From Bacteroidaceae bacterium (GTDB lineage Bacteria; Bacteroidota; Bacteroidia; Bacteroidales; Bacteroidaceae), in assembly GCA_024401215.1 (NCBI GenBank), contig JAKSLL010000030.1, positions 1-38,577 on the forward strand: a stretch of DNA of 38,577 bases. The letters run 5' to 3'. This document shows, piece by piece, positions 3,102 through 30,175 of the stretch. Position 1 is the first letter of the stretch, and each line of letters begins with the position of its first letter. The notes beneath the pieces are model-generated. The model did not search any database, had not been told where the DNA came from, and saw only the letters and a program-made list of their open reading frames with translations. The translations under genes and the position numbers were made by a program.

Positions 3102-3167
3102 TATTTCCTTCTACAAAACACGAAAACAAAGCGAATCTGCTTGCTTTTCACAGATAAGTAAGTAAAA

Positions 3168-3374
3168 TTAGTGACAGCACCTGCAGCAAAGCTTATCCTT
3201 GCACAGCGGATAAAGCAATCGTGCGAAATCACCAGCTAAGTAACAGGGCTCTTCTGATGATAGGTTAATTCCCTTTGATTCGGAAATATGCACGGCAAGA
3301 TGCATGATCTTATGCACCAGAGAGTCAAGGAACTCTCTTGCTGATGATGTTCTGCCTATCACCATCACAGACAT
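3168..3374 (-). CDS. Small hypothetical protein, lysis region
   Basis: A 68-aa ORF starting ATG TCT GTG ATG and ending in a Cys-rich tail (CKDKLCCRCCH). It is followed by the holin gene after about 120 bp and overlaps the 3' end of a 32-aa ORF by 10 nt. I do not recognise a family. The two ORFs may be the halves of one gene broken by a frameshift, because the end of the first and the start of the second are close in register. They may instead be a coupled pair. Confidence 0.5.
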   Translation of the reverse strand: MSVMVIGRTSSAREFLDSLVHKIMHLAVHISESKGINLSSEEPCYLAGDFARLLYPLCKDKLCCRCCH

Positions 3375-6697: not shown

Positions 6698-9175
6698 TTA
6701 TTTTATTGAGTTAATAAGATTGCGTAATTCTCGTGAGCGTGAGTAAGGTGCTGATACGCCAAGCTGATAGCGGAGGGATAAATCGTCAAGTCCTCGCTCC
6801 ACTCTGCGTATGCGTGCCGTAATGAGCTTGTTTCCATCCCCTGTGTCGCTTCCGTATATGCTGTTGGTGTATTCCACCTTCTGCCCGATGTTGAGGTTCA
6901 TTGCCCCTTCTTCGTCCACCTTAACCATCTTCCAGTCTCGCATGGAGTAGCCCTTGCAGCGTATGATGTTCATTTCCATGTCATACGTGCTCTGGTCTTT
7001 CTGCATTTCCTCCAGCACCTCGTTCGCTGTCTGCAGCAGCTGCTGTTCTGCCTGTGGAGTGAGACTATCATCTATGTAGTCGGTGTTCCATCCGTACAGC
7101 ACGAACTTATCCCCAGGCTGCGGTTTGATATTGTCGTTAGGAATAGGCATTCCATAGTCCTCGTTGTTGCGTACAATCGCAAAGACCTGTGAGTCTGGTG
7201 ATGCTTCGTCTCTGTCCTCTGGGTTGAACTTGACCTCAAAGTCCATTCCTGCCAATTGCTCTGTCTGGAAGATGATGTGCAAGGTCTCTCCATCAAGCAC
7301 ATATTTGTCGCTGAACTGGAAGCCCTCGTACTTTATGCGGTATGCGTTCCATTTCTCCACAACACCTGTTGTCTGGTCGGTTGTCTGCTCCAGTACTGGA
7401 ATGACCTCTGTGACCTCAACGTCCATCTTTGGGTAGATGTCATCAAGTATCAGTATTCCCTCTTTGCGGTTATAGATTGTCACACTCTCGCTCTCTATGC
7501 TGTCAATGCCATCTGGGAGCATAAGTCTGTTGTCTGCCACCCCTGCCTTGACCGCATCGTCTATGCGAGAGAAGAAGGATGCTGGCACAAGGACTTTGTT
7601 TATGTTGCCTATTATAAATTCATCCCCCATATTGGCTTCCGTCTCTCCTTCATCCATATTGTACGCTATCATGTAACGGTAGCCGTACTGGTCATTATTC
7701 TCTACTTTACCGAGAGGATTTATTACAGCGGAATGCGTGTGACCATTGATTGTGATAACAGCATCTGTTGACTCTTCCTGCCCCACCAGTATTAAGCTCA
7801 AGTTTGTAATCTCAATGTCAAAACCTTTCACGGCTCCATTGCCACCTTGACAGGTGATGCGCAAATAGCAAGCATTATAACCTGCCTTGATGCTCAACAC
7901 ACCTTGCAGCTTGTCGGCAATATTGTAGTTTACTGTCTCGTTTGGTGCGGATGATGCTGTGAAAAATGCTGATGATGCAGAACATATTTTGCCATCAGCA
8001 TCAACAATATCAAAGCGGAAGTTTATGTTTGACTGCACGCTTGACAGTGATGTTAGACGCACACTCGCATTACCTGCGACTTTGCACACTCTAACCTTCT
8101 GCTCTGGGTCAATCACGGTGATGTAATCATATTGAACACCCATAGCATAGCCTGTAGTTATGTCATCTTCCTTCCTTTTTATTGTTTGTCCGTTGAAAAG
8201 ACCAGTAGTTGTTTTCTCGTTGAGAGAATAAGTCTTCTGCGGAAGTCCAGACGCTGTCCTGTCAAAGCACTCTTTAGTCAGCAATCTCTGACCGTCAATT
8301 ATGGCTGTATCATAACCTTTGCTTTTTGCTGCGTTTCTTAATTCTTTTAGGTCAATGTGCTTTTTACTTGCATCTGTCTCGCTTTCAAGCTTGCTCATGA
8401 AATAACCTTCCTGCACCTTGAAAATAAGGTCTTTTCGGTAGATGTTGCTTATGTTCCTCGTGCCGCCAAAAGCATAAAGCACGTTGATGCCTTTGCTGTT
8501 CTGGCTCTGGCTGCGGTTCACGCTCTTGGTGTATTCTTCATCCATGCTAACGATGTTCTCGCTAACACAGGCTCCGAAATGCAGCACACAGTTGTAGGAG
8601 TCCACCCACCACTCTGTGCGCCAATGCTCATCATCGCACATGATGTTGAGGGCGCTAATGATGTCTGTGCCGCTGCTGAAATCGCACAGCTTCATTTCTG
8701 GGAACTCTCCATGTATTTCGTATGTGTACTCTCCGAATTTCCATGCGCTCTCGTTGATTGTCTCAATGATAAGGTCGAGGAAATACTTTGGAAACTGCGT
8801 CATCTTCCAGCCGCTGTCCGCACCAATGCCACGTTTGTAGAACAGCTTCGTGTCTCCCCAGAACTTCCATTCAGCCTCAAACTTCTGCTCATAGGTGTAG
8901 CCGCCTGCGCTGTTGCGTGTTGGCGTTGCAAGCTCACGAATGTAGTAGATACCGCCATCCACTTGATCTATGAAATCTCCTACGGATAGATTAAGCACCT
9001 TGTCACTATTCCAATTGAGCATGACGTATTCATCCGTCATAAGCTCGTTGACGTACTTGCATGATGGTGTAATCGGGATGCCAGCCGCAACTCGCTGTTG
9101 ACCTGCTTTGTGCGGATTGCTTCCATGTGTCTTTGGAGCAAACACCCATTTCTTAATGTCAATACTCTGAATCAT
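6698..9175 (-). CDS. Large distal tail protein (tail-hub / Tal-like)
   Basis: An 825-aa protein placed after the tape measure and two small distal-tail genes, where siphophages encode the tail-associated hub protein. The N-terminal ~380 residues have the mixed composition of baseplate-hub domains (GIYYIRELATPT, EQKFEAEWKFWGD). The middle is Ser/Thr-rich and beta-like, and the C-terminus (RRVERGLDDLSLRYQLG) returns to a hub-like fold. I see no clear peptidase or lysozyme motif. It overlaps the upstream gene by 4 nt (ATGA). Confidence 0.7.
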   Translation of the reverse strand: MIQSIDIKKWVFAPKTHGSNPHKAGQQRVAAGIPITPSCKYVNELMTDEYVMLNWNSDKVLNLSVGDFIDQVDGGIYYIRELATPTRNSAGGYTYEQKFEAEWKFWGDTKLFYKRGIGADSGWKMTQFPKYFLDLIIETINESAWKFGEYTYEIHGEFPEMKLCDFSSGTDIISALNIMCDDEHWRTEWWVDSYNCVLHFGACVSENIVSMDEEYTKSVNRSQSQNSKGINVLYAFGGTRNISNIYRKDLIFKVQEGYFMSKLESETDASKKHIDLKELRNAAKSKGYDTAIIDGQRLLTKECFDRTASGLPQKTYSLNEKTTTGLFNGQTIKRKEDDITTGYAMGVQYDYITVIDPEQKVRVCKVAGNASVRLTSLSSVQSNINFRFDIVDADGKICSASSAFFTASSAPNETVNYNIADKLQGVLSIKAGYNACYLRITCQGGNGAVKGFDIEITNLSLILVGQEESTDAVITINGHTHSAVINPLGKVENNDQYGYRYMIAYNMDEGETEANMGDEFIIGNINKVLVPASFFSRIDDAVKAGVADNRLMLPDGIDSIESESVTIYNRKEGILILDDIYPKMDVEVTEVIPVLEQTTDQTTGVVEKWNAYRIKYEGFQFSDKYVLDGETLHIIFQTEQLAGMDFEVKFNPEDRDEASPDSQVFAIVRNNEDYGMPIPNDNIKPQPGDKFVLYGWNTDYIDDSLTPQAEQQLLQTANEVLEEMQKDQSTYDMEMNIIRCKGYSMRDWKMVKVDEEGAMNLNIGQKVEYTNSIYGSDTGDGNKLITARIRRVERGLDDLSLRYQLGVSAPYSRSRELRNLINSIK

Positions 9176-16850: not shown

Positions 16851-17951
16851 TTACTGGAGACCTTCAAGATTGATGTTCACGATTTTGTTAGGAGCTGTGA
16901 ACTGTGGAACCCACTCTGCAGTGTACTCCATGTAGCGACCGTTCTTGTCACGGTAGTTGCTGATGAGCATCTGACCGTTGTTCTCGCCTACAGCATTGTA
17001 CTGTCTGCCAGCCACAGGGTCTGTTGCCTCGTGTGGCGTGTGGTGACGCATGTAACCGCTCATGTCCTGACGGAGGAGAGTGATGCGGTTATCTGCGTAA
17101 ATCTGCTTGTTTGTGCCGTCCTGCTCTTCAACATAGTCTTCCTTGATGTCAATTGCAGGAAGTCCAATGCCTGCCATGATAGAGTTAGCCATTTCCGTAG
17201 TCATGAGACCTGTTGCAAGGTCAAACTGACGTGAAGGCATAACCATCTTGAAGGTATCGCTGAACTCGCTTGAACCAACGATGAACTTGTTGAAGGTTGC
17301 ACGGCTCATCACCATCTTGCCGAATACTCCGTACTTGGCACGCAGCTGGAGAACGAGAGACTGCATATAGGAAATGAACTTCTTCTTGCCATCCACAACG
17401 ATGTCCCCCGATGTTGGAGTGATAAAGTGGAAAGGAAGGTCAATGTCAAGGAGTTCGATGCCTTCTGCGTTGTCCTTGTTCTTTACGGTTGCCTTACCGG
17501 TCATGAGGAGTGAACCTACGACAATATCCATACGCTTGTGAGGAGCGAGGATAATCTGGCGGTAATCATCGGCAATGAACTGGATAATCTCGTTCATGGC
17601 AGCAATCTGGTCGGCTGTCTTTGCCTCATTGTATTTGTCAATGAGATCCTGAAGCTCAGAAAGACGCTCAACGTCCATCTGATAAGCATCACCGAGGTAT
17701 GCGATTTCACCGTAACCGCTTCCGAGTGACTTGCGCTCACGGATAGGTTTCTCGCCATAGCGTGAGTTGATGGAACCTGCAACAACGCCAGTAACTGTGC
17801 CGAGGTAGTCCTTGAATACACGCTGTGTTGTTCTGCGGAAGGTGAGATACTGCTGCCAATAGATACGGTCAAGTCCCTGTTGAAGCACACGGTCAATAGT
17901 TGCCTGTACTACATTAGGATCATTAAAAAGTGTCTGAATGGTAAGTAACAT
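16851..17951 (-). CDS. Major capsid protein (lambda gpE-like)
   Basis: A 366-aa protein with the N-terminal shell region (VFKDYLGTVTGVVAGSINSR), a helical segment with many charged residues at about 95-145, then MDIVVGSLLMTGKATV, which matches the conserved gpE-family stretch, and a C-terminal domain ending WVPQFTAPNKIVNINLEG. Gene order (scaffold, decoration, capsid, connectors) fits lambda-like head modules. A hairpin follows the gene. No protease domain is seen nearby. Confidence 0.9.
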   Translation of the reverse strand: MLLTIQTLFNDPNVVQATIDRVLQQGLDRIYWQQYLTFRRTTQRVFKDYLGTVTGVVAGSINSRYGEKPIRERKSLGSGYGEIAYLGDAYQMDVERLSELQDLIDKYNEAKTADQIAAMNEIIQFIADDYRQIILAPHKRMDIVVGSLLMTGKATVKNKDNAEGIELLDIDLPFHFITPTSGDIVVDGKKKFISYMQSLVLQLRAKYGVFGKMVMSRATFNKFIVGSSEFSDTFKMVMPSRQFDLATGLMTTEMANSIMAGIGLPAIDIKEDYVEEQDGTNKQIYADNRITLLRQDMSGYMRHHTPHEATDPVAGRQYNAVGENNGQMLISNYRDKNGRYMEYTAEWVPQFTAPNKIVNINLEGLQ

Positions 17952-18608: not shown

Positions 18609-19259
18609 CTATTCCTTCTTTGGTGCGCCTGCTCGAATCTGTTCAGCGAATGTTTCACCATCCGTTTTCTGAACACCTCCCTTTACAGGTGGCACAGAAG
18701 GTTGGAATCCAAGGTTAGTGAGTTCTTGCGCCTTGTCCTTGAAGAATGCATCCAAGTCCTCTACGTTAGAAGGAACGCTGAACATCTTAGCCAATTCTTC
18801 TGAAATGCCATGAGCTTTAGCCTTTTCGATGATCTGCGCTGTCCGAAGTTCGCCTGCACGTCTCGCTTCCTCTGCATCTAGCCTGTCCGAGATAGGTTTC
18901 AACTTTTCGTCCAGTGCCTTTGCGATGATTGCAGTTAAATCGTCCGATGGAGGGGTTTGCTGCTGTGTGATAGTCTGCTTGCCATCTTCACCGATGTGAT
19001 ATTTCTCTTTGAAAGTTTTCTCAAAGTCCGTTTCAAAGGTCATTTTCAATGCATCACGTTGTGTTGCAAAACGCTTGTCAAAGAGAGATTGAAAGCCTTT
19101 CATTGCGTCCGCTTGTGCGTCCACGATTGTGTTGACATTCTCATCTGTTACTAAACCAGTAGCAAAAAGACTCACTGCAAGTCCCATGATCTCGCTGTCA
19201 CTCAATCCGCTCTGAGGGTATTTCGTCTTGAGTGCAGTAAATAGCTGTTGTGCGTTCAT
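18609..19259 (-). CDS. Scaffolding protein
   Basis: A 216-aa, highly charged helical protein from the start MNAQQLFTALKTKYPQ at 19259. An upstream in-frame start at 19355 would place translation before the likely transcript start. Residues 60-160 are Lys/Glu/Gln-rich coiled-coil (FDKRFATQRDALKMTFETDF), followed by a Pro/Gly linker and a basic tail. This composition and its place before the capsid genes fit an internal head scaffold. Confidence 0.8.
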   Translation of the reverse strand: MNAQQLFTALKTKYPQSGLSDSEIMGLAVSLFATGLVTDENVNTIVDAQADAMKGFQSLFDKRFATQRDALKMTFETDFEKTFKEKYHIGEDGKQTITQQQTPPSDDLTAIIAKALDEKLKPISDRLDAEEARRAGELRTAQIIEKAKAHGISEELAKMFSVPSNVEDLDAFFKDKAQELTNLGFQPSVPPVKGGVQKTDGETFAEQIRAGAPKKE

Positions 19260-19297
19260 TTTTGAATACTCACTTTTTGGGGTTAATAAAAACATCG

Positions 19298-19305
19298 CAA
19301 AGGTA
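19298..19305 (-). promoter_or_regulatory. Probable -7 box for the virion operon
   Basis: TACCTTTG on the minus strand matches TAnnTTTG and lies 39 bp before the scaffold start codon. No good TTTG -33 box is present 19-21 bp upstream, so a phage activator may be needed. An inverted repeat just upstream (19347-19370) could serve as its binding site. This would start the capsid-to-tail transcript. Confidence 0.5.
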
Positions 19306-19346
19306 AGTGATAACCTTTGATGTCGTTTAATATTTTCGTTCTGTTT

Positions 19347-19370
19347 GCTTACCAATAATTATTAGTAAGC
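19347..19370. repeat. Inverted repeat upstream of the virion promoter
   Basis: GCTTAC and GTAAGC flank 12 bp of AT-rich sequence, and the similarity extends outward imperfectly (TGTTTG before, CAAACA after, with 2 extra bases on one side). It lies about 40 bp upstream of the -7-like box. An activator or repressor site is possible. Confidence 0.4.
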
Positions 19371-19378
19371 ACAAACAC

Positions 19379-19414
19379 AAAAAAGCCTGTCCTATATTCA
19401 CATACGAGACAGGC
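19379..19414 (-). terminator. Intrinsic terminator after the amidotransferase gene
   Basis: On the minus strand GCCTGTC (19408-19414) and GACAGGC (19385-19391) form a 7-bp stem with a 16-nt loop, followed by TTTTTT. It closes the amidoligase-amidotransferase unit and separates it from the scaffold gene promoter. Confidence 0.75.
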
Positions 19415-19455
19415 GTAAAAAGCCAAACTAAGTCAAAATATGGTTGTAATATTAT

Positions 19456-19974
19456 CTATTCGTAGAGATAATGAGCAAATCTGAAATTGCTGTAATAGCA
19501 CCCATCATTGGTCATGAAACTGCCGTACAAGCGTACTTTGTCACCTTGCATGATTGCAAAACGGCTTGACTCAATTGTGTTGTACACTGCAGTGTCGCAT
19601 TCTGATGAATCCAAACCGCCTTGCATGATTGCAGGGTAGATGTACTTTAGAAACGCTGTCTCGCTGTCTGTCTTACCTTTGTAAGGTATGATGCTCAACA
19701 CGCCATTATGAGTAAAGAAAACGTCACCTTGCTTGAAGGGATGGCAATTGCTCTTGCACACGCTGCCATGAGTTGCCAGACGAAAGTGCATGATGCAAGG
19801 TTCGTCCGTCTCAACACTGGCAAGTTGCTTTTTAAACTGCTCGTAGGAGGTTGACTTGAAAAACTTTGTTGGGGTGCAGAATCCGAAGCCGTCTCTGTTG
19901 GCTCTTGCACACGCATTGATGATGTTGTTTGATGGCATTCTAACGCCCTTTGGCTTGTAAACTATTACACACAT
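19456..19974 (-). CDS. Class II glutamine amidotransferase-like (Ntn) protein
   Basis: A 172-aa protein starting MCVIVYKP, with Cys2 as the expected N-terminal nucleophile after Met removal. Family motifs are RANRDGFGF (24-32), MHFRLATHG (62-70), THNG (88-91) and KTDSE (101-105), as in class II glutaminase domains that release ammonia from glutamine or cleave amide bonds. No synthase domain is attached; the partner is probably the amidoligase encoded 47 nt upstream in the same transcript. Promoter and terminators isolate the pair from phage structural genes. Substrate is unknown. Confidence 0.8.
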   Translation of the reverse strand: MCVIVYKPKGVRMPSNNIINACARANRDGFGFCTPTKFFKSTSYEQFKKQLASVETDEPCIMHFRLATHGSVCKSNCHPFKQGDVFFTHNGVLSIIPYKGKTDSETAFLKYIYPAIMQGGLDSSECDTAVYNTIESSRFAIMQGDKVRLYGSFMTNDGCYYSNFRFAHYLYE

Positions 19975-20021
19975 GATGATATACGTTTTTATTGATAATA
20001 CTCTGTTGGTGGTGGTTGCCC

Positions 20022-20900
20022 TTATGCGAGGGCAGCCACTCTATTGTTGAAGAAAGCCTTTCTTGATGTGCTTATGAAAGGCAGGTCGTTGACGCTATTT
20101 GCGCTCTCTATGCGGTGCGACTTTGAGAACTCTATGAGGGCTTTCAAGAACTCAATCCAGTTGCTCATCTTCTCGAAGTCTGTTGTACCGCTGTGCTGAC
20201 GAAACTCTATTGTGTTGTGTCTGCGATATGCTACAGGGTTCACTTTGAAATATCTGTCACCGCTAAAGATGTTTGCTACATCGTCTTTGCTGTTGGCATA
20301 CTGCAACATTTCGTAGATGTTGTTGCCATACGCTCTGAACGTCTTGCAGTATGTGTTGTTTCTTCTGCTCTGTGGCATGAAAGAATCAATAACGCTCTCT
20401 AACTTTGCGTAGTTGATGAAGATGTTTCTGTATGTTGCGAAGTCAACCTTGTCAAGTCCAAAATGAACGTGAAGACCGCAAGACTTGTTTACTTTGGCGT
20501 TAATCTCATTCAGCACCTTGCACACCTTTTCAAGTGTCTGCATACCCTTCTTACCTTTGAGAATAGGTGAAACAACCTCTGCTGTGTTGTTACCATGAAG
20601 AGAAGCGTCTGTGACTACCTTGAAGTGGTCTCTGTGGTCTCTGTGGTTATAACCTTCAACGTAGCAAGCCACACCAGCCTCACGAAGACGCTGTGCGATT
20701 TCTTCACGCTCTACATTGTAGCACTCAATCTCAACACCAAATGTGATGTTAGCAATAGACTGCTTTGTCACGCCATACTGAAAGAACAATGTGCTGATTT
20801 CGTGCTGTCCAATGCCAAGATTACGAAGTGAACGAGTGATAGCGCTTGCACTTGTTTGAGTCTCAAAGATGTTTTCAATCTGCTGATTAAGAGTTGCCAT
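20022..20900 (-). CDS. Amidoligase-family enzyme (Amidoligase_2-like)
   Basis: A 292-aa ATP-dependent amide-bond-forming enzyme of the COOH-NH2 ligase (glutamine-synthetase-like) fold, from the start MATLNQQIEN at 20900. A longer in-frame ORF upstream runs through the promoter. Hallmarks in order are FGVEIE (54-59), AEVVSP (107-112), CGLHVHFG (141-148) and IEFRQHSGT (231-239). Residues 1-50 are an extra helical domain. Such enzymes are thought to modify peptides, proteins or cell-wall components. It is followed by a glutaminase-type gene. The location between portal and scaffold genes is unusual for an enzyme. Confidence 0.85.
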   Translation of the reverse strand: MATLNQQIENIFETQTSASAITRSLRNLGIGQHEISTLFFQYGVTKQSIANITFGVEIECYNVEREEIAQRLREAGVACYVEGYNHRDHRDHFKVVTDASLHGNNTAEVVSPILKGKKGMQTLEKVCKVLNEINAKVNKSCGLHVHFGLDKVDFATYRNIFINYAKLESVIDSFMPQSRRNNTYCKTFRAYGNNIYEMLQYANSKDDVANIFSGDRYFKVNPVAYRRHNTIEFRQHSGTTDFEKMSNWIEFLKALIEFSKSHRIESANSVNDLPFISTSRKAFFNNRVAALA

Positions 20901-20949
20901 AATTTTGAAAGTTTTGTTAGTTTGACTTGTTGTTTTTAATTTTGTACTG

Positions 20950-20981
20950 CAAAGGTATATGATTTTATTCATACAAACAAA
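20950..20981 (-). promoter_or_regulatory. Sigma-A-type promoter of the amidoligase cassette
   Basis: On the minus strand a -33 TTTG (20978-20981) and -7 TACCTTTG (20950-20957) are separated by 20 bp. The start codon lies about 50 nt downstream. A TATGATTTTATTC operator-like motif falls in the spacer. Confidence 0.8.
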
Positions 20982-21062
20982 TAATATATAATAAAAATGT
21001 ATGATTTTATTCAAAATTATATAAATTTGTACTAAATCATACAAAGTATATGTGTTTTAGTT
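20950..21062. repeat. 113-bp regulatory repeat, copy A
   Basis: This stretch matches 29261-29373 at 111 of 113 positions in the same orientation. It contains a complete promoter, two direct TATGATTTTATTC motifs and an inverted AAATCATACA. Copy A precedes the amidoligase; copy B precedes a 57-aa gene next to the XRE repressor. The 3' side continues as unrelated AT-rich DNA with further partial motifs (TGTATGATTG, AATCATACAT) up to 21150. No gene is visible in 20901-21236; it holds only this element and the portal terminator. Confidence 0.9.
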
Positions 21063-21149
21063 GTTTTGTATGATTGTAATATATCGTATTGTTGTGTTTT
21101 ATATTATATAAATAAAAAATGTTGTATGTGAACAATCATACATATTATA

Positions 21150-21190
21150 TATAATAAAAGAGAGTACTATGCATCACGCACAATACTCTC
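21150..21190 (-). terminator. Intrinsic terminator after the portal gene
   Basis: On the minus strand GAGAGTA (21184-21190) pairs with TACTCTC (21160-21166) over a 17-nt loop, followed by TTTTATTAT. It ends the packaging transcript and insulates the amidoligase promoter from read-through. Confidence 0.7.
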
Positions 21191-21236: not shown

Positions 21237-22715
21237 TTATTCTGTATTGCTTTTGTCAAGCTGGCTCTTTTTGGTCAGATCTTCTTCTATGGACTCCAGT
21301 TCCTCTTTGTGCTCGTCAGTAATGCCAACAAGTATGACTCCCTGCTTTCGTGACATTACTCCCTTGTCAACAGCTGTGGCTGCATCAGCAATTCTTTTTG
21401 ACAAATCTTCTATTCTGTAAGGACGCTGCTCAAGATCAACATCAACAGTTTCACAAGCTTTCTTCATCGAAGGAACAAGACTGCCAATTGCAGACAGAAG
21501 AAAGTTGACACGTCTCTGATAGAACTCGCCAATCTCTTCCCAGTGTCTATCTACTGCGAAAAGTGTTGCCATGAACATATATTCGAACGATGTTCCGCTT
21601 GGGAATTGCCCACTGTTTTTTAGCTGGTCAAAAGCAATGAGAGGAGTGTTGGTAAGCGAATAGCAGCGAACGAGAAGATTGTCCATCTGCGTTTTAACCA
21701 TGTCAGAAGTCTGGTGCCAGTCGAGATAATAAGCTTTGCCTCCGTTTGTGATTTTCAGCAAATGAGATTTCCCGATGTTCTCGGCTCCACCGTTGGCAAG
21801 ATCACCTTCAAGAATGAGTTTTGGGAAGAAATTCATCTTGATAGCGTCAGAATAGTCAGAGGTCAGCGTTTCAAGCGACTCACGAGCACCTTTAATATTC
21901 TTGCAGAGTGCTTCGGGACGGTATGAGTATATGACAGGAATCTTGCTAAAGCCATGCTTAAATGGGTAGTTGTCTGCATCAGTCCAGTTGGTTTTCTCGC
22001 CATGCTCCACGTTGTAAACATACTCATCGGTAACAAGCATGAAGCATTTTTTTGTTGATCCATCAACAAGCTTCACTTCATATTCACGCCCGATGCCAAG
22101 AAAATCATTTCCATTGTCAGCATAGATAGGGTATAGTTTGTCACCTTTGAATGGAGACCATATCTGCATGCGAAGTTTGTCCGTTGGCTTTGCATTGATG
22201 CCTCCTAAACTCTTGATTGCATTCCACACTTTCTGCCAAAAGCCTGTGTCCTTGTAACGGTACCAGTATTCGCAAACTTCTTGCTCGGATAGCCATGAGC
22301 GGAGTTCACGCTTATTAGCGTAGCGTAACTTGTTGTCTTTATGAATCTTTTTTAACAGATTGACCGCATCAAGTTCATCCTTATCCTCTGTCTCGGTCTT
22401 CATCAAAGGCTCATTGCCGACGGTGAAGGCAACATGAATGTTCACGATGTCCTGCTCAATAGGGAGTGCAATGCGTGCAACCTCTTCTGTCTCAAATTCT
22501 GGAGGGTACTCTTTGCCGTTGTCATCAACATAAGCGTCCTTGACAAGTGTCTTCATATCCTTGCGGAACTTCTTGTCATAGACTCTGTGCTTGTCACAAA
22601 ACCATGCTGCCATGTTCTCTGCTGTGACTGGCATAGGCGTATGGCGTGATTTCTTGATGAAATTGATACGTTCCTCCCATGTTTCGAGAGTGAATATTTC
22701 CTGAATGCTGTTCAT
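21237..22715 (-). CDS. Portal protein (SPP1 gp6 type)
   Basis: A 492-aa protein that forms the dodecameric portal at one capsid vertex. Family features are the helical N-terminus, the central wing (YVYNVEHGEKTNWTD, HGFSKIPVIYSYRPE), the segment LTSDYSDAIKMNFFPKLILE, and a long stem/crown helical region with an acidic C-terminus (EELESIEEDLTKKS). It lies 12 nt after the terminase gene, and its length is typical of this portal type. It is the last gene of the packaging unit. Confidence 0.92.
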   Translation of the reverse strand: MNSIQEIFTLETWEERINFIKKSRHTPMPVTAENMAAWFCDKHRVYDKKFRKDMKTLVKDAYVDDNGKEYPPEFETEEVARIALPIEQDIVNIHVAFTVGNEPLMKTETEDKDELDAVNLLKKIHKDNKLRYANKRELRSWLSEQEVCEYWYRYKDTGFWQKVWNAIKSLGGINAKPTDKLRMQIWSPFKGDKLYPIYADNGNDFLGIGREYEVKLVDGSTKKCFMLVTDEYVYNVEHGEKTNWTDADNYPFKHGFSKIPVIYSYRPEALCKNIKGARESLETLTSDYSDAIKMNFFPKLILEGDLANGGAENIGKSHLLKITNGGKAYYLDWHQTSDMVKTQMDNLLVRCYSLTNTPLIAFDQLKNSGQFPSGTSFEYMFMATLFAVDRHWEEIGEFYQRRVNFLLSAIGSLVPSMKKACETVDVDLEQRPYRIEDLSKRIADAATAVDKGVMSRKQGVILVGITDEHKEELESIEEDLTKKSQLDKSNTE

Positions 22716-27189: not shown

Positions 27190-27561
27190 CTAGGAACGAC
27201 TGTTCACGGTGGTATGCTCAATGATCTTGCCGAGGTCATATACAACTCTCTCAACCACCCAGATTTGACCGTTGTACTCGTACTCTATCGGCTGATTATC
27301 TTCATCAACCATGATTTCGCACTTTGCACCCTTCACTTCAACGAGAGCCGTGTCACCTGTCTCTTTGCCTGTGAATAGGATAGCGTCATACTCTATTGGA
27401 ATTGCATTGGCATTATCGTCCTCAATCTCGAAGCCGTTCGCATCCAGCTGCAGAAACTTCTTGATGTTGTTCGGTCTTACCTCACGAAATTCTTGCACCT
27501 TTCTGCCATCTTTGATAGCGTCAAGGTATCTTTGTTTGATTGAAAGTTTTAATGTTCTCAT
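27190..27561 (-). CDS. ASCH-domain protein 1
   Basis: A 123-aa protein from MRTLKLSIKQRYLDAIKDGR at 27561, chosen because the longer frame crosses the promoter. The N-terminal SIKQRYLDAIKDGRKVQEFR is the typical ASCH opening, in which a Lys and Glu-Phe-Arg line the substrate pocket. Later strands are AILFTGKETGDTALVEVKGA. ASCH domains are PUA-like and bind RNA or nucleosides. It is the first gene of the packaging transcript. Two other ASCH proteins occur in the window. Confidence 0.8.
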   Translation of the reverse strand: MRTLKLSIKQRYLDAIKDGRKVQEFREVRPNNIKKFLQLDANGFEIEDDNANAIPIEYDAILFTGKETGDTALVEVKGAKCEIMVDEDNQPIEYEYNGQIWVVERVVYDLGKIIEHTTVNSRS

Positions 27562-27583
27562 TGTGCATATATTTAATACATGG

Positions 27584-27614
27584 CAAAGGTACTCTTTACG
27601 TGCGTATGTGTAAA
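27584..27614 (-). promoter_or_regulatory. Promoter of the packaging unit
   Basis: On the minus strand TACCTTTG (27584-27591) is a perfect -7 box, and TTTA at 27611-27614 is a one-mismatch -33 box at a spacing of 19 bp. It lies 23 nt before the ASCH start codon and directly after a terminator, so it should start the ASCH-to-portal transcript. Confidence 0.65.
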
Positions 27615-27668
27615 GCATTTTGCCATGAGTCTGCTTACTTATATTTTTAAGTTAGAAAATAAACAAGA

Positions 27669-29223: not shown

Positions 29224-29260
29224 ATTTTGTAATTTTTTAGTTTGTTTCTTAAATTTGATG

Positions 29261-29292
29261 CAAAGGTATATGATTTTATTCGTACAAACAAA
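29261..29292 (-). promoter_or_regulatory. Early leftward promoter
   Basis: TTTG (29289-29292) and TACCTTTG (29261-29268) on the minus strand with a 20-bp spacer, the same promoter as in front of the amidoligase. A TATGATTTTATTC motif fills the spacer (29269-29281), so a bound regulator would block it. Confidence 0.8.
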
Positions 29293-29373
29293 TAATATGT
29301 AATAAAAATGTATGATTTTATTCAAAATTATATAAATTTGTACTAAATCATACAAAGTATATGTGTTTTAGTT
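29261..29373. repeat. 113-bp regulatory repeat, copy B, with operator motifs
   Basis: The match to copy A (20950-21062) is 111 of 113, in the same orientation. Direct TATGATTTTATTC motifs lie at 29269-29281 and 29311-29323 (42 bp apart), with a third just outside the repeat at 29380-29392 and an inverted AAATCATACA at 29345-29354. The array lies between the early promoter and the XRE promoter and is the probable repressor operator region. Confidence 0.9.
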
Positions 29374-29411
29374 ATTGTGTATGATTTTATTCTAACTTTT
29401 TTGTATAAATG

Positions 29412-29443
29412 TTTGCGTGTTTCAAGCAAAGTCTTTACCTTTG
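29412..29443 (+). promoter_or_regulatory. XRE repressor promoter
   Basis: TTTG (29412-29415), 20 bp, TACCTTTG (29436-29443) on the plus strand, about 40 nt before the XRE start codon. The third operator-like motif lies 20 bp upstream of the -33 box, suggesting autoregulation. Confidence 0.8.
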
Positions 29444-29484
29444 CAGCGAATTAAGATAATCATACATTTATTAACATCAAAACT

Positions 29485-29772
29485 ATGAACGTAAAAGCAG
29501 TAATTAAAAAACATGGCTTGACAATCACAGAGGTTGCAAGTCGCATTGGTATTTCACGTGTCACGCTCATGCAGAACTTACAGCGTAATCCCACTCAGAA
29601 AACCTTACAGAGGATAGCAGAGGCTGTCGGTTGCGAAGTGGCAGATTTCTACAAAGAAGATGAGTCGCAGGATAGCGTGATTGGTTTTGTAGAGATCAAT
29701 AAGAAAATTCACAAAGTAGAGAGCGTTGAGGATTTGAAGAATCTTGTAAACAGTTTAGAAGATGAACAATGA
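29485..29772 (+). CDS. XRE-family transcriptional regulator (likely phage repressor)
   Basis: A 95-aa protein with a helix-turn-helix at about residues 11-35 (GLTITEVASRIGISRVTLMQ). A short C-terminal tail (KIHKVESVEDLKNLVNSL) may dimerise. It is transcribed rightward, divergent from the early unit, with an array of shared operator-like motifs between them. It lacks a CI-type peptidase domain, so induction would not be by RecA-stimulated cleavage. Its stop overlaps the ASCH gene by 11 nt. Confidence 0.85.
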   Translation: MNVKAVIKKHGLTITEVASRIGISRVTLMQNLQRNPTQKTLQRIAEAVGCEVADFYKEDESQDSVIGFVEINKKIHKVESVEDLKNLVNSLEDEQ

Positions 29773-30175
29773 CGAAGAACTCTACCTGCCAATCAAGCAG
29801 GTTTACTTTGACCAGATTGTGGCTGGCACAAAAAAAGAAGAGTACAGAGAGGTGAAGCTGGGCATCACTATGAACAGATACCTCAAAAAGGCTGACAATA
29901 GCAGCGGATTTGAGCTGAATCCAGAAACGACAGATTCTTCAAAAACATATTACTGGGACGATTACAACAATGGTAATTACCCATTTGTGCCAAAGGATAT
30001 TAAGCGCTTAAATCTTGCAGTTGGGTACGCTAAAGACAGAGACACTTGCACGGTAGAGGTTGAGAGCATCACCTTTGAGCCTGGCAGAGTCTTGGGCAAT
30101 CCTCCACAGTTCGCATGGTGGCTCATGGTGTTTCACCTTGGCAAGGTCAGCAATGTATATCGAAAGAAAAGGTAA
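29762..30175 (+). CDS. ASCH-domain protein 2
   Basis: A 137-aa protein starting MNNDEELYLPIKQVYFDQIV. The stretch LPIKQVYFDQIVAGTKKEEY at about 8-27 is the ASCH opening, matching ASCH protein 1 (IKQRYLDAIKDGRKVQEFRE). Later sequence includes aromatic segments (TYYWDDYNNGNYPF) and FAWWLMVFHLGKV. It is co-transcribed with the XRE repressor, so it is probably made in the lysogen. Confidence 0.75.
   Translation: MNNDEELYLPIKQVYFDQIVAGTKKEEYREVKLGITMNRYLKKADNSSGFELNPETTDSSKTYYWDDYNNGNYPFVPKDIKRLNLAVGYAKDRDTCTVEVESITFEPGRVLGNPPQFAWWLMVFHLGKVSNVYRKKR

Follow-up and report, generated by a model that had tools for sequence, protein, structure and literature searches.

The contig JAKSLL010000030.1 of the Bacteroidaceae bacterium assembly GCA_024401215.1 was analyzed here as one entire stretch of 38,577 nt (the window; contig C159 of an assembly of 4.35 Mb in 234 contigs). 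It carries, on the minus strand, a two-gene unit in which an Amidoligase_2 family gene (20022..20900) is followed by a gene for a class II glutamine amidotransferase (GATase)-like protein (19456..19974). The unit is enclosed by terminator-like hairpins, and its promoter segment is a near copy of one lying beside a helix-turn-helix (HTH) regulator gene elsewhere in the window. The pair probably forms or edits amide bonds. We tentatively postulate, at somewhat under an even chance, that it encodes a two-part, glutamine-dependent, amide-forming enzyme under an HTH-linked promoter, with a target most likely on the host side.

The gene pair and its possibly exchangeable partners

Both genes had been named in a preliminary description of this DNA, and both assignments proved sound. 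The amidoligase, 292 residues long from an ATG at 20900, matches PF12224 with 141.7 bits (E 4.8e-41) against a curated cut-off of 22; its longest open reading frame (ORF) runs from 20022 to 21044 with a TTG start, and 20900 is the first ATG past the promoter. The modeled protein folds in the manner of glutamine synthetase and conserves acidic, His, and Arg positions, and the catalytic residues are retained across homologs. The GATase (172 residues) passes the Pfam cut-off for PF13230 (GATase_4; E 3.8e-6), its profile ranks GlmS best among solved chains (E 1.5e-11), and a weak match to EgtC (E 3.9e-4) falls under the EgtC cut-off. An N-terminal Cys follows Met1, and together with Arg65, Asn90, Gly91, and Asp103 it makes up what we take to be the catalytic and glutamine-binding set; Cys2 and Arg65 are present in 75/75 GATases and the other three in 74/75.

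Two further features of the amidoligase gene may be recorded. Residues 1-41 (20780-20900) are predicted to form three helices N-terminal to the catalytic domain, HTH-like in appearance in several homologs and with Pfam support below the cut-off. A strong hairpin (20011-20040; z -3.7) also lies at the stop codon and is terminator-like on the plus strand only.

The distribution of the pair was followed in 159 non-redundant amidoligase loci, window included, 158 of which entered a FastTree phylogeny after exclusion of one row shorter than 180 residues; amidoligases with identical last 150 residues were merged. The loci came from two amidoligase draws (the best 80 of 251 matches and the best 80 of at least 544), from 9 of the 99 phage records that gave an amidoligase match, from the survey of 201 host-family genomes described below, by way of a GATase query alone (L003, L004, and L006-L010), and from presence in both match lists (L012, L014, and L015). 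The closest loci, among the best 80 of 251, lie on contigs labeled Bacteroidaceae or Prevotellaceae; these labels and the promoter type point to a host within the Bacteroidota. Loci L001 and L025-L030 were excluded, being mostly second copies of counted places, which also removed the sole copies from genome G140; there (L025, contig C23) the amidoligase is interrupted by TGA and TAA and the adjoining GATase is intact.

In the window's clade (70 rows, support 99), a GATase gene lies within 5 kb of the amidoligase in 67 rows, or in 63 of 66 once the window and three rows picked with knowledge of their GATase are set aside. Across the tree the figure is 75/158, so the pairing is a property of the clade and not of the family. 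All 75 GATases share the strand of their amidoligase, and 64 start no more than 150 nt past its stop, two overlapping ORF calls included. A reverse draw by GATase alignment (the best 80 of 107 viral loci) returned an amidoligase in 77 of the 80 fetched stretches and none in 3, although the query alignment consisted of paired GATases and many of its contigs had already appeared in the first draw. Among 201 genomes of the host family, including the window's own, an amidoligase was present in 6 and a GATase stood alongside it in 4 of these, one with a broken amidoligase. The suggestion that the two genes form a unit is thus upheld, with the GATase neighbor kept within the clade and the catalytic residues conserved. 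Two distant loci (L006:3111-7044 and L008:5129-8954) hold two amidoligase-like genes per GATase.

The sister clade (71 rows, support 91) has another partner. In 70 of its rows a small protein, of about 75-80 residues in typical loci (e.g., L041:8933-9157), is encoded immediately downstream of the amidoligase in place of the GATase, with a 4-nt overlap between its ORF and the amidoligase stop in 20/73 loci. Its model comprises a beta hairpin and three helices (pLDDT 96.0). No Pfam cut-off was reached by the four members scanned, two members had no NCBIfam match, and a single weak PHROGs match (L067 to phrog_7845, of unknown function, E 0.0044) may mark its family; a named relative was not found in Pfam, PHROGs, or NCBIfam. 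Ten small-protein sequences used as queries led to 21 loci; 20 of these have an amidoligase (the miss falling at a contig end) and none has a GATase. GATase and small protein co-occur in 0/158 rows, a count that rests on few changes, as the tree needs only two between the two states. In 6/158 rows a GGCT-type gene is instead nearest to the amidoligase, and in phage C75C1 (L014:9693-10589) a GATase-like part, with Cys2 conserved and a Pfam score below the cut-off, is fused to a GGCT domain (PF06094, E 2.7e-21) near the amidoligase. It is tempting to speculate, with rather less than even confidence, that the amidoligase of these phages serves as a catalytic core whose partner at one downstream place can be exchanged, GATase for small protein, and that the partner sets the nitrogen donor or the substrate. 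The GATase-clade unit would then belong to a small HTH regulon and, when located apart from the HTH gene, could bring a duplicate of the operator array with it.

A duplicated promoter and a variable position

Upstream of the amidoligase, a candidate promoter TTTG-N20-TACCTTTG (20950..20981, minus strand) is an exact match to what is presumably the Bacteroidota promoter consensus; the pattern TTTG-N18-22-TANNTTTG is present 11 times across the window, where 1.33 occurrences would be expected. The promoter is not among the sigma-70-type matches of the window consensus scan. The preliminary description had credited the unit with a consensus promoter of its own, and the consensus stands, but the promoter is a copy: the segment 20948..21090 (143 nt, minus strand) is 93% identical in alignment to 29259..29401 (minus strand), which sits between the HTH gene and the leftward genes. 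This two-copy repeat was absent from the earlier observations. The HTH gene (29485..29772, plus strand), divergent from the leftward operon, encodes a Cro/C1-type regulator of 95 residues (PF01381, E 5.9e-9), and it matches a profile of HTH genes adjoining related amidoligases with E 1.9e-21.

Each promoter region also contains four copies of the word AATCATACA, candidate operators: at 20998 (minus), 21035 (plus), 21067 (minus), and 21134 (plus) beside the cassette (20998..21142), and at 29309 (minus), 29346 (plus), 29378 (minus), and 29458 (plus) beside the HTH gene (29309..29466). The strand order is identical in both, the fourth site of each falls beyond the 143-nt copy, and the eight copies (0.73 expected) leave none elsewhere in the window. 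The composite TGTATGATT-N15-45-AATCATACA is found at two places in the whole assembly, namely these two promoter regions, and its reversed control at 0. As a copy of the HTH-side promoter, the cassette promoter seems to tie the unit to a phage regulon. In one relative (L237), two more sites in the prophage resemble the promoter region 5′ of the amidoligase (90% and 78%; segments 3155-3289, 8647-8751, and 16929-17065), perhaps reflecting a larger regulon.

The terminators reported on both sides of the unit were confirmed. At the boundary with the portal gene, the hairpin at 21160..21190 (minus strand) has a folding energy, taken over the whole stretch folded, of -19.7 kcal/mol (z -5.6); 3′ of the GATase gene, a hairpin with a T run at 19379..19414 (minus strand) has -16.8 kcal/mol (z -3.4) and was not returned by the terminator consensus scan, which permits loops of up to 8.

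The position of the pair varies among relatives. In the window and in L227, L228, L229, and L240, it lies between the portal and a scaffold-like gene, with the HTH gene elsewhere; in L230 and L231 it has the same place and is accompanied by its own HTH gene; in L236 and L237 pair and HTH gene adjoin the scaffold-like gene, the portal being about 10 kb or more distant. In five relatives (L232-L235 and L239), the pair directly adjoins a divergent HTH gene outside the head cluster, and in L232-L235 the gap from portal to scaffold-like gene measures 166 to 1305 nt without the pair, against 1881 nt in the window with it. The earlier view of the unit as a phage moron agrees with these varied sites and with the gap of as little as 166 nt in relatives; terminators and a promoter are present, but a promoter belonging to the unit alone is not supported. 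A divergent HTH gene lies upstream in 34/63 clade loci with at least 900 nt of upstream sequence and in 0/66 sister-clade loci (sequence length limiting the count to 63 of 70 and 66 of 71 rows), a contrast that is partly biased because the HTH profile was trained on neighbors of these amidoligases and the sister hosts lie partly outside Bacteroidota. The promoter pattern is present upstream in 37/67 clade rows and 2/68 sister rows, the sequence length sufficing in 67 of 70 and 68 of 71, and a reversed control pattern gave 3 and 1.

Integrase, endolysin, tape measure, major head, portal, and large terminase genes are all present, for which reason we regard the window as a temperate tailed phage or a prophage. 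A search of its ends gave no exact terminal repeat of 15 nt or longer. The gene upstream of the cassette is indeed a portal gene (21237..22715, minus strand; PF05133, E 1.1e-18; phrog_64). Its downstream neighbor (18609..19355, minus strand), earlier termed the scaffold gene, matches phrog_5824 (E 3.7e-24), a PHROG of unknown function, and we call it scaffold-like because it precedes the major head protein gene. Paralogs of phrog_625, also of unknown function, lie in the leftward operon (27190-27618) and right after the HTH gene (29762-30175), and related genes recur next to the pair in relatives.

Proposed mechanism and its alternatives

Our first choice is a two-part glutamine-dependent ligase. 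Judging from its sequence, the GATase would have Cys2 exposed by removal of Met1 and would hydrolyze glutamine; the amidoligase, given the modeled glutamine-synthetase fold, would activate a carboxylate with ATP and attach the nitrogen released. The unit would be transcribed from the copied promoter/operator segment and controlled in trans by the HTH protein along with the leftward operon, and the terminators would isolate it from transcription of the portal and head genes. A host-side target seems most likely, such as a wall peptide or a gamma-glutamyl metabolite, whose modification might for example alter the infected cell against other phages.

Several points weigh against this proposal. 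Five phages have the pair between portal and scaffold-like gene and lack an HTH gene next to it. Of these, the window (229 bits) and L229 (154 bits) show strong, genome-specific similarity of the two promoters within the genome, but in L227 (44.6 bits) and L228 (54.5 bits) the similarity is weak and does not exceed that between genomes, and in L240 none was found. Likewise, repeated words common to both promoters occur in the window and L229 but were not found in L227 or L228. The lack of the HTH gene in the sister clade may partly reflect other HTH families, given the neighbor-trained profile, and none of the genes noticed next to the pair is specific to the cell wall. Finally, ammonia transfer between the two proteins is a guess, and a hydrolase role for the GATase fits as well.

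Such a hydrolase is at the center of our second choice, in which the amidoligase adds a gamma-glutamyl or other acyl group to an amine and the GATase-fold enzyme, an amidohydrolase, removes it. EgtA and EgtC of ergothioneine synthesis offer a precedent for such writing and erasing, and EgtC is the protein that the GATase weakly matches. GGCT-type enzymes, which cleave gamma-glutamyl bonds, take the place of the GATase in the six rows noted above and are joined to a GATase-like part in C75C1; in a related podovirus cassette, GATase and GGCT are both placed on the degradation side (PMC5498523). The best solved-chain relative, GlmS, is however an ammonia-transferring enzyme, and we consider this alternative rather doubtful.

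It is unlikely, though not strikingly so, that the promoter similarity is only a relic, left after the unit was relocated, promoter included, out of the HTH locus and escaped HTH control. Relatives do carry the pair at the HTH locus, and promoter sharing is weak or absent in 3/5 phages of the window's arrangement; yet the fourth AATCATACA site has kept the same orientation in both regions despite lying beyond the copy, and the word is confined to these regions. Less probable still is the role of a metabolic helper, in which the pair supports the nitrogen or gamma-glutamyl metabolism of the infected host and no particular target is modified. The available portion of one report describes a chronic phage that encodes amidoligase, GATase, GGCT, and glutathione synthase and improved the growth of a second host on ammonium or nitrate, for which the authors propose such a role (PMC10945688); the experiment there used the whole phage and did not single out these genes, and searches of the window phage found neither GGCT nor glutathione synthase. 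Amidation of a capsid or scaffold protein, to which the site between portal and scaffold-like gene in the window, L227-L229, and L240 would point, is very improbable in view of the separate terminators, the HTH-linked promoter, and the five relatives with the pair outside the head cluster.

Returning to the two-part ligase, a virion protein and host peptidoglycan had been put forward as the first candidate targets. An HTH-regulon promoter would make the former less likely than a host-side target, and a wall-peptide target has been proposed in print for related cassettes.

Comparison with known amidoligase systems

Glutamine synthetase and gamma-glutamyl ligases (GS, GmaS, and 1tt4) are only about 10-15% identical to the window amidoligase; they work without a partner GATase, and the comparison leaves the N-terminal part of the window protein uncovered. 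GatD of Staphylococcus, which we take to be a class I GATase, provides with MurT a working analogy and not a relative; MurT is a Mur-ligase-like enzyme, unlike the amidoligase. MurT and GatD are encoded by adjacent ligase and separate glutaminase genes and amidate glutamate, according to the accessible part of PMC3267633.

Phage examples are closer. The window GATase matches those of OM43 phages MEP401/402 and of the Mycobacterium phage Marvin group; MEP401/402 encode an amidoligase (PF12224) and a GATase, the latter assigned in the available text to PF13522, unlike the PF13230 of the window (PMC10580990). Such genes are also listed for LUZ24-like phages in the available parts of PMC3890496 and PMC3517423. 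In the literature searched, no paper on amidoligase, phage, and Bacteroides together was found, nor any direct test of a phage amidoligase/GATase cassette or an HTH-linked version.

The nearest counterpart is the seven-gene podovirus "peptidoglycan modification cassette" of PSA-HP1, RIO-1, phiEco32, LUZ24, tf, and others, with amidoligases, ATP-grasp, GGCT, and GATase, which has been hypothesized to change the host surface (PMC5498523, citing Iyer et al. and Hardies et al. 2013). The superinfection-exclusion proposal for such cassettes dates from 2009 and has been restated since, for phiEco32 in the available passages of PMC10580990 and PMC11318856 (citing Iyer 2009). Like the window, the podovirus cassette brings a phage-encoded amidoligase and GATase together, and the action proposed for it, on wall peptides against superinfection, is one considered here for the window pair. 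It differs in having seven genes, GGCT, ATP-grasp, and a second amidoligase among them, placed with early or replication genes of lytic podoviruses, whereas the window pair has two genes in a temperate phage and shares its promoter with an HTH gene. No GGCT profile match was obtained in the window, and no ATP-grasp was found among the window proteins scanned; the unit is thus better seen as a variant that may work like the peptidoglycan modification cassette than as a member of it. This version, from phages of Bacteroidota in gut and rumen samples, is reduced to two genes; its promoter is defined, and there are candidates for both operators and regulator. With so few components and a natural partner swap, both its chemistry and its timing could be tested with little.
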